Below are positions 53,389 to 58,882 of a DNA stretch of 64,000 nucleotides, piece by piece (the first letter of the stretch is position 1; each line of letters starts with the position of its first letter). Origin of the DNA: Parabacteroides sp. FAFU027 (GTDB lineage: Bacteria > Bacteroidota > Bacteroidia > Bacteroidales > UBA7332); contig NZ_JAKZKV010000001.1 of assembly GCF_022808675.1 (NCBI RefSeq), forward strand, positions 682,001-746,000, in the 5' to 3' direction. Under the pieces are notes generated by a model. The model saw only the letters and a list, made by a program, of their open reading frames with translations. It was not told the DNA's origin and did no database searches. The position numbers and the translations under genes are program-made.

Positions 53389-53547
53389 GAGCTATTCTAT
53401 CAGTTTTCAATCTTTGCAAACTTGAGTATCAATGATTACATTCTGGCTATAATACTGAATGAAACCTTCCATCATTTATAATATCAAACAAATACCACGC
53501 CCCAACTTTCAGTTTCGCAGAAATAACAACATTTTTCTAACAGAAAA

Positions 53548-53578
53548 TTTGGAAGAATAAATAGAATCGCTATATTTG
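53548..53578 (+). promoter_or_regulatory. Consensus promoter of the ilv leader and operon
   Basis: TTTG at 53548-53551, a 19-base spacer and TAtaTTTG at 53571-53578 plus C. It is a full match to the Bacteroidota promoter and stands 23 bases before the leader ORF. A second, weaker TAttTTTG element at 53750-53757 lies beyond the terminator and could give attenuator-free transcription. Confidence 0.75.
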
Positions 53579-53601
53579 CAAAATCAAAGAATCAAAGCAT
53601 A

Positions 53602-53664
53602 ATGATTTACAACTTACATATCGTCTCTGTTAATGTCGTTCTAGTGGTCTGGAAACGCAAATGA
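53602..53664 (+). CDS. ilvL: ilv operon leader peptide (attenuator)
   Basis: A 20-codon ORF, ATG 53602 to TGA 53662-53664. Its product holds six Val, two Leu and two Ile, so half of all residues are branched-chain amino acids, with the run V-V-L-V-V at codons 12-16. It lies just after a consensus promoter and just before a terminator hairpin, upstream of ilvD. This is the layout of a translation-sensing attenuator: slow translation at the Val/Leu codons under starvation would leave the antiterminator free to form. The symbol follows the enterobacterial name; sequence homology is not implied. Confidence 0.8.
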   Translation: MIYNLHIVSVNVVLVVWKRK

Positions 53665-53740
53665 GAAAGGTATGTAGTTAAAAGAACTATAAGCAGTTAT
53701 TGTCAAAGCCTTTCTCGTTGTCGGGAAAGGCTTTTTCAGT
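53663..53740 (+). terminator. Attenuator: antiterminator and terminator before ilvD
   Basis: Terminator: AAAGCCTTTC (53705-53714) pairs with GAAAGGCTTT (53725-53734), followed by a T-rich tract. Antiterminator: GAGAAAGG (53663-53670), overlapping the leader stop codon, is the exact complement of CCTTTCTC (53709-53716) inside the terminator's left arm. The two structures exclude each other. A ribosome at the leader stop would cover GAGAAAGG and favour termination; one stalled upstream would leave it free. Confidence 0.8.
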
Positions 53741-53908
53741 TTTAATCCGTATTTTTGCACGGCAAAAATGGCCGACTGTTAAAATAGTCATCCAACATAA
53801 CAGGATTTACATAGAAACATCGAAATTATACGTGGCAAACAGCTCTTTATCAATCGGGAACAACTCCCCAGAAAAAGATTCTGACCGCCGATTAAATTCA
53901 AACAAACA

Positions 53909-55741
53909 ATGAAAAATCAGTTACGCAGTTCGTTCAGCACACAAGGCCGCAGAATGGCCGGTGCACGCTCTCTCTGGAAAGCCAACGGGATGAAAAGTGA
54001 ACAATTAGGCAAACCTATCATCGCCATAGTCAACTCATTTACTCAGTTTGTACCGGGACACGTCCACCTTCACGAAATCGGACAAAAGGTGAAAGCCGAA
54101 ATCGAAAAACTGGGCTGCTTTGCTGCTGAATTCAACACCATCGCTATCGACGATGGAATCGCAATGGGACACGACGGTATGCTATATTCCCTCCCTTCAC
54201 GCGACCTGATTGCCGACAGCGTTGAATATATGGTTAATGCACACAAAGCCGATGCTATGGTGTGTATCTCCAACTGTGACAAGATCACTCCGGGTATGCT
54301 GATGGCTGCTATGCGCCTCAATATCCCTGCAGTTTTCGTATCAGGTGGTCCGATGGAAGCCGGAGAGCTCGACGGCAAACACCTTGACCTGATCGACGCC
54401 ATGGTACAGGCAGCTGACGACAGCGTTAGCGATGAACAAGTAGCTAAAGTAGAGGCTTCGGCCTGTCCTACCTGTGGTAGCTGTTCGGGAATGTTTACCG
54501 CCAACTCGATGAACTGCCTCAACGAAGCCATCGGTCTGGCCCTGCCGGGTAACGGTACTATCGTGGCTACTCACGCCAACCGTACCCAACTGTTTGTTGA
54601 CGCAGCCAAGCTGATCGTTGAAAACGCATACAAATATTACCGCGACGGAGACGACAGCGTATTGCCACGCTCTATCGCTACCCGTTCTGCCTTTATGAAT
54701 GCGATGGCACTCGATATTGCCATGGGTGGTTCTACCAACACGGTTCTTCACCTCCTTGCTATTGCCAACGAAGCGGAAGTTGATTTCAAAATGGCTGACA
54801 TTGACGCACTTTCACGCAAAACTCCTTGTTTGTGCAAAGTAGCTCCAAACTCGCAGAAGTACCACATTCAGGACGTTAACCGTGCCGGAGGTATCATGGC
54901 CATCATGTCGGAGTTGAACAAAATCGGATTGATTGACACAAATGTAAGTCGTGCTGACGGTCTGACATTGGGCGAAGCGATCGACAAATTTGACATCAAC
55001 AGCCCGAATGTTACCGAGGTTGCCATTGACAAATACAAAAGTGCCCCTGCTCACCGCTTCAATCTGGTGATGGGTTCACAAGATTCTAAATACAAAGAGC
55101 TGGATACTGACCGTGTAAACGGCTGTATCCGCAATTACGATAACGCTTATGTAAAAGACGGCGGTTTGGCTGTCCTTTTCGGAAACATCGCGCTCAACGG
55201 CTGTGTGGTTAAGACCGCCGGAGTAGATGAAAGCTGCTTCCTTTTCAAAGGAACGGCGAAAGTATTCACATCGCAGGATACAGCCTGTGATGGAATCCTG
55301 AGAGGAACAGTACAAGCCGGAGACGTCGTGGTGATCACTCACGAAGGGCCTAAAGGCGGCCCGGGTATGCAGGAGATGCTTTATCCGACCTCATACATCA
55401 AATCACGCCACCTCGGTAAAGAGTGTGCGTTGATTACCGACGGTCGCTTCTCCGGAGGTACTTCAGGTCTTTCTATCGGCCACATCTCTCCGGAAGCAGC
55501 TTCGGGCGGTAATATCGGCTTGGTTCAGACAGGCGATATCATCGAGATCAACATCCCGGCCCGTTCTATCAACCTGTTGGTCAGTGACGAGGAGTTAGCC
55601 GAAAGACGCAAAGCCGAAGAAGCACGAGGTAAAGATGCCTTTAAACCCAAAGACAGAAACCGCGTTGTTTCTAAAGCACTCCGCGCTTACGCCAGCATGG
55701 TAGCTTCGGCTGATATGGGTGCTGTAAGAATTGTGGAATAA
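53909..55741 (+). CDS. ilvD: Dihydroxy-acid dehydratase
   Basis: A 610-residue dehydratase of full length. Cluster-binding cysteines are visible in '[12 protein letters not shown]' near residue 124 and '[12 protein letters not shown]' near residue 190, and the C-terminal motifs '[11 protein letters not shown]' and '[11 protein letters not shown]' are intact. It converts the dihydroxy acids to 2-keto acids in Val/Ile/Leu synthesis. It is the first structural gene of the operon and follows the attenuator by about 170 bases. Confidence 0.97.
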
Positions 55742-55873: not shown

Positions 55874-57574
55874 ATGAGCAAAGAACTAATTTCAGGCGCG
55901 GAAGCATTAATGAGATCACTGATCCATGAAGGGGTTGATACCATCTTTGGATATCCCGGCGGTGCCATCATGCCGGTTTACGATGCTTTACACGACCATC
56001 AGGATAAAATCAAACACATTTTGGTTCGTCACGAACAAGGTGCAACCCATGCGGCACAAGGATATGCCCGCGTTAGTGGTAAAACAGGTGTCGCACTTGT
56101 TACTTCCGGTCCGGCAGCAACAAATGCCATTACCGGTATTGCCGATGCCATGATTGATAGCACACCTATGGTTGTCATCATCGGTCAGGTAGGAGCTGCA
56201 CTATTGGGAACAGACGCATTCCAGGAAACGGATGTAGTAAGTATTACCCAGCCTATTACCAAATGGAGCTACCAGGTACGCAATGCAGAAGATCTCCCCG
56301 GTGCAATTGCCCGTGCATTTTATATCGCACGAGAAGGCCGTCCGGGTCCTGTTGTGATTGACTTTGCTAAAAACGCTCAAATCGCAAAACTCGAATATAG
56401 CTATAAAAAATGCACCTTCATCCGCAGCTTCGTTCCGGTACCAGATGTGGAACCATGGTCCATTGAAGCTGCTGCTGCGTTGATCAACTCAGCAAAAAAA
56501 CCTTTTGCATTGATTGGCCAGGGGGTTATCCTTGCCAATGCTGAAAAAGAGTTGAATGCCTTCCTTGAAAAAGCAGACATTCCTGCGGGATGGACTTTGC
56601 TTGGTTCGTCTGCAATGCCGACTGAGCACCGTCTGAACAAAGGTATGCTGGGAATGCACGGAAACATCGGTCCAAACATAAAAACCAACGAATGCGATGT
56701 TTTGATCGCTATCGGTATGCGTTTTGACGACCGTGTAACGAGTGATTTGAACACTTATGCCAAACAGGCCCGTGTGATTCACTTCGACATTGACCCGGCT
56801 GAGATCAACAAGAATGTAAAAGCGGAAGTAGCTGTATTGGGTGATGCCAAACAAACATTGGAATTGGTTACCGAAAAACTGAATGCAGCTAAACATACCG
56901 AATGGATTGATTCATTCACCGAATACGAACAAACCGAACAAGAGAAAGTAATCGAACCGGAACTTAATCCGACAAGTCACGAAATCTCCATGGGTGAAGT
57001 AATCCGTAAAGTTTCGGAAGCCACCGAAAACAAAGCGGTATTGGTAACCGACGTAGGTCAGAACCAAATGATGGCTTCCCGTTATTTCAAATTTACCCAA
57101 TCCCGCAGCATGGTTACATCGGGCGGATTGGGCACGATGGGATTCGGACTTCCGGCTGCTATCGGGGCTAAAATCGGAGCACCAGACCGTACTGTTTGTC
57201 TCTTTACCGGTGACGGTGGTATGCAAATGACCATCCAGGAGCTGGGAACTATACTGCAGGAAGGTACAGGTGTGAAAATGATTATCCTGAATAATAACTT
57301 CCTAGGTATGGTACGCCAGTGGCAGGAACTCTTCTTCAATGACCGTTACTCGGAAACCCACATGAAGAATCCGGATTTCATCATGATTGCCCAAGCATAC
57401 GGGATCAAAGGTCGTTCGGTTTCTCAGCGTGAGGATCTTGATGGCGCCATTGCCGAGATGCTCAGCGATGACCAGCCCTATTTGCTTGAGGTGAAAGTTG
57501 AAACCAAAGGTATGGTTTATCCGATGATCCCTACCGGAGCATCTATTTCTAACATTTTACTGGGTGATAAATAA
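55874..57574 (+). CDS. ilvB: Acetolactate synthase, large subunit
   Basis: A 566-residue thiamine-diphosphate enzyme. The activating Glu is in 'LVRHEQGATHAAQGYAR' near residue 51, and the ThDP/Mg motif is 'GDGGMQMTIQELGTI' followed by 'NNNFLGMVRQWQE' near residue 480. It makes acetolactate or acetohydroxybutyrate, the first committed step. The regulatory subunit gene ilvN follows 46 bases later. A purine-rich AGAAAGGGAT stretch precedes the ATG. Confidence 0.97.
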   Translation: MSKELISGAEALMRSLIHEGVDTIFGYPGGAIMPVYDALHDHQDKIKHILVRHEQGATHAAQGYARVSGKTGVALVTSGPAATNAITGIADAMIDSTPMVVIIGQVGAALLGTDAFQETDVVSITQPITKWSYQVRNAEDLPGAIARAFYIAREGRPGPVVIDFAKNAQIAKLEYSYKKCTFIRSFVPVPDVEPWSIEAAAALINSAKKPFALIGQGVILANAEKELNAFLEKADIPAGWTLLGSSAMPTEHRLNKGMLGMHGNIGPNIKTNECDVLIAIGMRFDDRVTSDLNTYAKQARVIHFDIDPAEINKNVKAEVAVLGDAKQTLELVTEKLNAAKHTEWIDSFTEYEQTEQEKVIEPELNPTSHEISMGEVIRKVSEATENKAVLVTDVGQNQMMASRYFKFTQSRSMVTSGGLGTMGFGLPAAIGAKIGAPDRTVCLFTGDGGMQMTIQELGTILQEGTGVKMIILNNNFLGMVRQWQELFFNDRYSETHMKNPDFIMIAQAYGIKGRSVSQREDLDGAIAEMLSDDQPYLLEVKVETKGMVYPMIPTGASISNILLGDK

Positions 57575-57620
57575 TCCCACCAATAACGGTAACGTAGAAC
57601 ATTAAACTTTGCACCGAATT

Positions 57621-58151
57621 ATGGAACTATTTACTATCATCGTTTTTTCGGAAAACCAACCCGGACTCCTGAGCCAGGTTTCGAATATATTCACACGTCG
57701 TCAGATCAATATTGAAAGCCTGACCGTTTCTGCCTCTTCGATCGAGGGTATCCACAAATACACCATCACCGTTTTCTCAACCAAAGACATGGTGGATAAA
57801 GTGGTTAAGCAGATCGAAAAGCGCGTAGATGTGGTTAAAGCTTACTTCTATACTGATGAAGAGGTTATTTATCAGGAAATTGCACTCTACAAAGTGGCAA
57901 CCAACATCATCGTTGACCATGTAGAAGTGGAAAATCTGGTTCGTAAGTACAATGCCCGTTTTCTGGAAATCAACCGCGATTACGCCGTACTTGAACTTAC
58001 AGGACATACGGAAGATACCCAGTTATTCTTTGAAGAGCTGAAACAATACGGAGTAATGCAGTTTGTTCGTTCAGGACGGATTGCCATTACCAAGAGCTCA
58101 AAGGAGCTGCTGAGTAATTTCCTTGAAAAGAGGGCTGAAAAAGCAGACTAA
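57621..58151 (+). CDS. ilvN: Acetolactate synthase, small regulatory subunit
   Basis: A 176-residue subunit. The N-terminal ACT domain reads 'FTIIVFSENQPGLLSQVSNI' followed by 'RRQINIESLTVS'; the second half is the ALS_ss C-terminal domain with 'LEINRDYAVLELTGH'. It binds valine and tunes IlvB. ATG 57621 is chosen over TTG 57609 because the ACT domain begins directly there. Its stop overlaps the start of the thioesterase gene by one base, so the two are coupled. Confidence 0.93.
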   Translation: MELFTIIVFSENQPGLLSQVSNIFTRRQINIESLTVSASSIEGIHKYTITVFSTKDMVDKVVKQIEKRVDVVKAYFYTDEEVIYQEIALYKVATNIIVDHVEVENLVRKYNARFLEINRDYAVLELTGHTEDTQLFFEELKQYGVMQFVRSGRIAITKSSKELLSNFLEKRAEKAD

Positions 58152-58882
58152 TGAACCGGATAGGTAGTTACACCTTTAGTATAGAAGCGGGAGACGTCGA
58201 TATTTTTGGAAAATATCCGTTACCGGTACTCGTGCGAAAGATGCTTGACTGCGCCGGATACCATGCTGACGAACGAGGCTGGGGGCTCCGCCATTTAAAT
58301 GCAGGGAACTGTTCCTGGGTATTAGCCAGAGCTGCTATTGAGTTGGAGAGCTTTCCTGAAATCTATGACCATATTGTTATTCAGACCTGGGTTGAAGATT
58401 TGAATAAACATTTCTCTACCCGGAATTTCTGTTTTCAGAATCAAAAAGGTGAAATTTTAGGTTACGCACGCACTGTGTGGTCAATGATAGACCTGAACAC
58501 CCGAAAGGCTGCAGATCTAACAGCTGTAAGCGACATCAGCAATCACAAAGTTGACAAAGAGTGTCCAATCGATAAACCTGGCAAAATCGGGATTGTATCA
58601 AGCGAACCGGAATATTTTCATGATGTGAAATATTCAGATTTGGATTTCAACGGACATGTCAATACCTGCAAGTATGTGGAGCATATCATTAACCTGTTTT
58701 CATCAGACATTAAGCAAATCGGAGAACTAAACAGATTTGACATCACATTCATGTCGGAATCAAAACCCGGAGATAAGCTTCATTTTCACCGGGCAACAGC
58801 CTCCGATCACGAAACTCAGATCGAAATCACGGGACATAACTCCCGGTCAATTTGCAGAGCTAAAATTACATTTAAGAAATAA
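58151..58882 (+). CDS. Acyl-ACP thioesterase, FatA/FatB type
   Basis: A 243-residue double-hotdog enzyme. 'LLDCAGYHADERG'-like 'MLDCAGYHADERGWGLRHL' opens the first fold and 'SDLDFNGHVNTCKYVEHI' near residue 170 carries the Asn-His catalytic motif of the second. It releases fatty acids from acyl carrier protein. Its placement after ilvN is conserved in many Bacteroidota; the metabolic reason (for example branched-chain fatty acids) is inference. In related genomes ilvC often follows; here a terminator does. Confidence 0.9.
   Translation: MNRIGSYTFSIEAGDVDIFGKYPLPVLVRKMLDCAGYHADERGWGLRHLNAGNCSWVLARAAIELESFPEIYDHIVIQTWVEDLNKHFSTRNFCFQNQKGEILGYARTVWSMIDLNTRKAADLTAVSDISNHKVDKECPIDKPGKIGIVSSEPEYFHDVKYSDLDFNGHVNTCKYVEHIINLFSSDIKQIGELNRFDITFMSESKPGDKLHFHRATASDHETQIEITGHNSRSICRAKITFKK

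Follow-up and report, generated by a model that had tools for sequence, protein, structure and literature searches.

The attenuators of Escherichia coli that control ilvGMEDA, ilvBN and the trp, his and leu operons share a leader peptide containing the regulated codons, a stop codon lying over segment 2 of the leader RNA, mutually exclusive 1:2, 2:3 and 3:4 hairpins, and a terminator before the first structural gene. Attenuation by a leader peptide is a known mechanism that has already been suggested for other Bacteroidota; Lopatovskaya et al. (2010) reportedly may have predicted attenuators in Bacteroidetes.

The ilvB-II motif of Corynebacterium, in the passages of PMC10272879 that describe it, consists of a conserved upstream ORF rich in branched-chain amino acids (BCAA), a terminator and an antiterminator; expression of a reporter fusion was high in minimal medium and low in rich medium, and a change of a single Val codon left the regulation undisrupted. 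On the basis of those passages, the motif resembles the leader described here in combining a BCAA-rich ORF, a terminator and an antiterminator before an ilv operon, and differs from it in belonging to Actinobacteria, in preceding ilvB and in its sequence and structure. For the Streptomyces coelicolor ilvBNC operon, replacing the possible control codons had no effect, according to the relevant passage of PMC1262725, and attenuator-like anatomy alone is therefore no proof. Within Bacteroidota, a section of PMC9723704 on Flavobacterium psychrophilum describes strong clues, found upstream of operons for amino-acid biosynthesis, to attenuation by leader peptides and names pheA and hisG among the conserved structured 5' elements; this section, on the same phylum as our locus, leaves the attenuated operons unnamed and gives neither a model nor a test. 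The 5' UTRs of B. thetaiotaomicron are described in part of PMC7366714 as containing short ORFs reminiscent of leader peptides. The Bacteroid-trp motif (Rfam RF01692) is entered as cis-regulatory in Bacteroidetes in the corresponding part of PMC2864571. It differs from the leader studied here, which its model does not match; the model is absent from the same genome and was found at E ≤ 0.001 in four of 31 relatives, two of them above the cut-off. From its name we take this motif to act by trp attenuation. Among the full-text literature matches listed, in which subscription papers are mostly uncovered, we found no description of attenuation by a leader before ilvD or leuA in Bacteroidota.

The window, i.e. 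the whole 64-kb stretch of DNA analysed, contains such a leader on its forward strand, before an ilvDBN operon; the elements noticed from the sequence alone were all confirmed at base level. The promoter that the sequence-only reading had placed ahead of the leader is of the Bacteroides type, TTTG-N19-TATATTTG (53548–53578; TTTG at 53548–53551, a 19-nt spacer and TATATTTG at 53571–53578), and transcription would begin at about 53585, some 17 nt 5' of the leader ATG. The ORF reads as that reading had given it, with 20 codons (53602–53664, peptide MIYNLHIVSVNVVLVVWKRK, stop codon TGA at 53662–53664), and 10 of its 20 residues are Ile, Leu or Val, six of these being Val. The last run of control codons, GTC GTT CTA GTG GTC, occupies 53635–53649.

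Segment 2, the left arm of the antiterminator (53663–53679), has the core GAGAAAGG (53663–53670), whose first base is the second base of the TGA. Its exact complement CCTTTCTC (segment 3, 53709–53716) lies in the left arm of the terminator, as previously noticed, and is common to the antiterminator (2:3) and the terminator (3:4). The predicted intrinsic terminator hairpin extends from 53705 to 53734. Its stem has 13 pairs, and the terminator piece has a z-score of −6.6 against shuffles; the T-tract begins at 53732 and is interrupted and short (TTTTTCAGTTTT). A scan of 53400–53950 for a terminator consensus gave one match where shuffles averaged 0.5, a result that is weak on its own. A third pairing, missing from the earlier description, joins segment 1 (53611–53627) to segment 2 on the ribosome-free leader and would act as an anti-antiterminator (1:2).

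The leader stop codon and the start of ilvD are 244 nt apart with the terminator in between, and the gap from the terminator to ilvD is 174 nt. Within this gap a second −7-like box, TATTTTTG (53750–53757), for which no TTTG is apparent by eye at the −33 position, is a possible attenuator-independent start. NCBIfam models identify the three genes behind the leader as the ilvDBN that had been proposed: ilvD (dihydroxy-acid dehydratase, 53909–55741, TIGR00110/NF009103), ilvB (acetolactate synthase large subunit, 55874–57574, TIGR00118) and ilvN (acetolactate synthase small subunit, 57609–58151, TIGR00119). An ORF of 243 aa adjoins the 3' end of ilvN on the same strand (58151–58882) and has no NCBIfam match at E ≤ 1e-10. 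A second copy of the leader in the genome was not counted as biological: contigs C1 and C7 share an identical stretch of at least 19 205 bases (G000:C7:71000–90204 and G000:C1:725796–745000, the region of the window), probably a duplication introduced by the assembly that would also raise copy counts artificially.

In architecture the locus is like the E. coli attenuators, in its peptide codons, stop-codon position, hairpins and terminator. It differs from them in its Bacteroides-type promoter, in the gene order ilvDBN and in the A-rich start of its leader, without GGAG, GAGG or AGGA; the leuA leaders, moreover, code for both Leu and Ile.

For the untranslated leader the computed folding energy is −46.4 kcal/mol (z = −4.9; none of 200 shuffles as good), and its minimum free energy structure comprises the hairpin between 53611–53627 and 53663–53679 and the terminator. 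The duplex of segment 2 with the left arm of the terminator has −17.3 kcal/mol, matched by one of 200 shuffles, and both tested RNA pieces that end before segment 4 adopt the antiterminator fold. Taking the ribosome footprint to be about 13 nt, a ribosome whose A site holds the last Val codon (53647) would leave the RNA free from 53660 onwards, and the computed probability of 2:3 is then 0.995–0.999 until segment 4 is transcribed. A ribosome at the stop codon, by the same computed geometry, covers segment 2, so that 3:4 is the only one of 2:3 and 3:4 that can form. At equilibrium the terminator is favoured in the full-length RNA in every state computed, with a probability of 0.999 even when segment 2 is free; read-through must therefore be kinetic and decided during transcription, as in classical attenuators. 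Immediately before segment 4 is transcribed, 2:3 outcompetes 1:2 on the ribosome-free RNA (0.97), and any protection by 1:2 is accordingly kinetic only.

Conservation was examined with an ilvD protein search of GTDB, from which the best 80 of at least 596 loci were taken and sorted by label (62 Bacteroidota, 18 others). Leaders were detected by scanning for terminators and for ORFs rich in I/L/V, and with a covariance model, R1. Of the 62 Bacteroidota-labelled loci, 41 have a leader with a terminator before ilvD, a tally that counts L018 and L056 by eye (one missed by R1, one at E 0.22) and places L017 (partial R1 match, E 0.048) among those without a leader. None was found in the 18 other-labelled loci, three of which (L060, L072, L077) carry less than 200 bases upstream; the best R1 matches there had E values of 0.13 and 0.71 and both lay away from ilvD. 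The 21 Bacteroidota-labelled loci without an element include eight of the 10 labelled Prevotella (L037, L043, L044, L049, L054, L061, L068, L070), and two of the leaderless loci, L039 and L061, present only about 200 bases upstream (195 for L061). A DNA similarity search with the window leader recovered only six of 99 genomes, its own included and two of them on the promoter side only, because the leader is too divergent between genomes.

Covariation was analysed in an alignment, A1, that combines the window locus with 37 of the 41 leader loci, leaving out the truncated locus L022 and the tandem loci L053, L062 and L066; a second alignment, A2, additionally excludes L018, L030, L056 and L065. 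For the terminator, 96.0 per cent of the cells of A1 are paired and 10 of 12 pairs have two-sided changes (0/500 shuffles). The antiterminator is paired in 84.0 per cent of cells with 19 two-sided cells, each reached in none of 500 shuffles, and its covariation is 0.211, against 0.128 when shuffled and at most 0.130 when slid; six of its pairs have two-sided changes, a number reached by 27 of 500 shuffles. Both arms have changed together in, for example, L045 (GAGAATGG/CCATTCTC) and L025 (GAAGAAAGG/CCTTTCTTC). RNAalifold applied to A1 found the terminator alone, 2:3 and 3:4 being mutually exclusive. Locus by locus, the 2:3 duplex is as good in at most 10 of 200 shuffles in 32 of 38 loci and in at most two of 200 in 24; the six that missed the former mark are L018, L023, L030, L036, L038 and L056. 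At L056:1628–1798, segment 2 (GGGAATCC) seems by eye to be paired with the terminator loop and not with its left arm. The 2:3 segment lies at −2 to +11 relative to the stop codon (median of 38 loci). The check on conservation in relatives that had been proposed came out in favour: 37 related loci retain the leader ORF and the pairing of GAGAAAGG with CCTTTCTC, and compensatory changes accompany them.

The 1:2 pairing is less evident in single loci, 17 of 38 reaching the 15/300 mark in a simple shuffle test. When arms were swapped between species, the sum for the own arms over the 38 loci was −531.5 against −379.7 (s.d. 16.9), a difference reached in none of 5000 permutations. The own arm came first in six of 38 loci, with a mean rank of 8.8 where 19.5 is expected, and the window's own pairing ranked fifth of 38; in this test the stretch was shifted by hand where the leader ORF extends past segment 2.

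The leader ORF carries a clear coding signal. In the 38 loci, I/L/V codons make up 53.4 per cent of the leader frame and 24.2 and 8.8 per cent of the other two frames, and T stands at codon position 2 in 57 per cent of the codons of the leader frame. The 38 leaders contain 179 Val, 127 Ile and 125 Leu codons. Codon choice, measured in 38 loci picked without the covariance model (codon usage from model matches being biased by the model), is skewed relative to ilvD of the same loci: the share of GTC is 0.45 against 0.16, that of CTA 0.26 against 0.02 and that of ATT 0.69 against 0.40. The leader exceeds ilvD for GTC + GTG in 33 of 37 loci and for ATT in 31 of 38. Upstream of the leader start the sequence is A-rich, and GGAG, GAGG and AGGA are absent between −20 and −4 in all 38 loci (for L080 and L085 the reference point was an internal TTG, four codons into the ORF, and L059 offers few upstream bases). 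Of 37 loci, 35 have the motif TAnnTTTG within 70 nt (at 26–56 nt) ahead of the leader start, compared with 191 of 7600 background windows (2.5%), and 34 of the 35 have TTG 15–26 nt further upstream.

Taken together, the identified elements with their conservation and covariation, the reading frame and a peptide composition matched to the operon support a classical ribosome-mediated transcription attenuator for branched-chain amino acids, a reading to which we assign a probability of roughly 0.87. When charged tRNA-Val, -Leu and -Ile are ample, the ribosome would reach the stop codon and mask segment 2, the terminator 3:4 would fold and transcription would end near 53740. When one of these charged tRNAs is scarce, the ribosome would stall in the codons up to 53649, blocking the pairing of segment 1 and leaving segment 2 free; 2:3 would then fold before segment 4 exists, and the polymerase would continue into ilvDBN. 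On an untranslated leader 1:2 would fold, with termination as the default. Translation of the leader, activity of the terminator and the response to charged tRNA are all inferred here from sequence. The most fitting signal is charged tRNA-Val/Ile/Leu, Ile being added because its codons are as frequent as those of Leu in the 38 leaders. The sequence elements of such a device are all found: a short ORF rich in end-product codons, a predicted intrinsic terminator between it and the first gene, an antiterminator that excludes the terminator and would be masked once a ribosome reached the stop codon (weak in six of 38 loci), and a 1:2 pairing freeing 3:4, weaker per locus (17 of 38) and kinetic only by folding. 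A second promoter at 53750 could possibly bypass the attenuator.

That box also enters the reading in which a small RNA or a small-protein gene gives a short transcript of its own that stops at the terminator, and ilvD is uncoupled from it on its own promoter, for example TATTTTTG. The position of the box 3' of the terminator and the 174-nt gap in the window favour this reading; the gap is, however, 17–55 nt in 31 of the 36 A1 loci with a terminator listed, which leaves scant room for an ilvD promoter, and a free small RNA needs neither a mutually exclusive 2:3 pairing nor codons matched to the operon. We consider it improbable. It is still less credible that the hairpins sense a protein or a small molecule, in the manner of a riboswitch, a T-box or a PyrR-like element, with the ORF incidental. 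All that speaks for this is a set of weak, chance-level Rfam matches (PyrR scores 24.5 bits, E 0.31, where the gathering score is 54), while the reading frame, the codon skew and the operon-matched residues appear selected and segment 2 is fixed at the stop codon. No Rfam family reached its gathering score in the window, T-box and other leader models included, and the nine matches at E ≤ 10 in 53500–53950, among which Bacteroid-trp does not figure, were all far below theirs.

The distance between stop codon and ilvD bears on a further possibility, that the leader chiefly boosts translation of ilvD through reinitiation instead of attenuating transcription. Part of PMC4833913 proposes reinitiation for leader genes close upstream, with a peak at 11–14 bp in Bacteroidetes, and states that attenuation usually requires a longer distance; with 244 nt and an intervening terminator in the window, we give this possibility almost no credence. 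If attenuation is the right reading, the ribosome must trail the polymerase closely in Bacteroidota, with ilvD leaders that have no Shine–Dalgarno-like sites. Since classical attenuation needs this proximity, transcription–translation coupling in Bacteroidota becomes testable with one reporter, and the locus offers a concrete, conserved and readily testable regulator of branched-chain amino acid synthesis in Bacteroidales.

The same device appears to recur widely across Bacteroidota, where such control has hardly been tested; its breadth within the phylum, its sensor variants and the missing Shine–Dalgarno-like sites are what make it noteworthy. With strict filters and E ≤ 0.001, R1 matched at least 182 of 393 genomes of the order. 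A non-random set of 110 loci was inspected (the 30 best, 20 second or tandem sites and 60 further from the top of the listing), representing 109 places since L096 is L134, and including the window. They comprise 82 leaders before ilvD, 24 before leuA, three before ilvB and one His leader, the last (L194) at a contig end; at L179 the element precedes ilvD and follows a gene that is ilvE-like by its first codons. Composition tracks the product of the operon, which supports the branched-chain reading proposed from the sequence: in script-picked leaders, among which L184 is doubtful, Val, Leu and Ile account for 20.7, 17.3 and 18.5 per cent before ilvD and for 2.3, 21.0 and 21.8 per cent before leuA, and the difference in Val was reached in none of 10 000 label permutations. 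The genome of the window carries a second attenuator of this kind (L120:1449–1532, on G000:C6), whose peptide MNTISLHFLLQNSIILPGKSGRRKVGM has Leu and Ile and one Val and which precedes leuA-leuC-leuD and a citramalate synthase-like gene. The best family for the latter is citramalate synthase, at 663 bits under a model cut-off of 950; should it be cimA, the operon would supply Leu and Ile, the same residues as the leader codons.

Relatives contribute additional sensor peptides. An ORF with at least four His lies within 400 nt upstream of hisG in 18 of 20 loci (L226–L245, two of those with the ORF being partial hisG matches) and in 285 of 4760 background windows; the genome of the window has one (L232, MYATTFHHGHHHFQQ). 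A search of the phylum with R1 matched 121 of 395 genomes, a figure that is not a leader count because six of the 26 loci inspected (L205, L211, L214, L216, L219, L223) have no leader and resemble ordinary gene-end terminators. The other 20 were assigned and precede ilvD, ilvE-like genes with ilvD behind them, an ilvN-like gene, six trpE-like genes and two genes for O-acetylhomoserine (OAH) sulfhydrylase. The ilv model thus matched Trp-rich leaders (NWLWWWH, TWYWSYWYQ, NWWWWN and others) at L209, L212, L213, L220, L221 and L222, before genes that we presume from their N-termini to be trpE-like.

The two OAH sulfhydrylase loci carry Met/Cys peptides, and a Met/Cys-rich peptide is recorded at L208; the gene downstream of L217 was tested with TIGR01326 (OAH sulfhydrylase). 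In a sample of 61 genomes, 13 of 14 loci scoring above the TIGR01326 cut-off have an upstream ORF with at least six Met/Cys (L251–L261, L263 and L264, for example MMQMCMMMCCCM), and L262 has five; L265 had no upstream sequence and L266 was left out. Among lower-scoring homologues (L267–L280) the proportion is one of 14, and in background windows 89 of 5320. The 2:3 duplex was as good in at most five of 200 shuffles in all 12 Met/Cys leaders tested, L253 being outside this set, and these 12 show the terminator as well. In one lineage of Bacteroidota the Met/Cys leaders thus form a candidate methionine/cysteine attenuator, for which the literature matches listed contain no precedent.

Our inclination, slightly on the favourable side, is that Bacteroidota possess a phylum-wide system of interchangeable leader-peptide attenuators, in which one cassette, GAGAANGG/CCNTTCTC, would be combined with varied sensor peptides: Val/Ile/Leu before ilvD and ilvE-ilvD, Leu/Ile before leuACD-cimA, Trp, and Met/Cys in one lineage, with His leaders before hisG alongside and sometimes two or more complete modules in series. 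Two complete leader and terminator units are seen before ilvD in L134, L135, L136, L155, L053, L062 and L066, and L204 has modules in series, perhaps three, before an ilvE-like gene. The two modules of L135 differ in their arm pairs, which are GAGAATG/CATTCTC and GAGAAAGG/CCTTTCTC.
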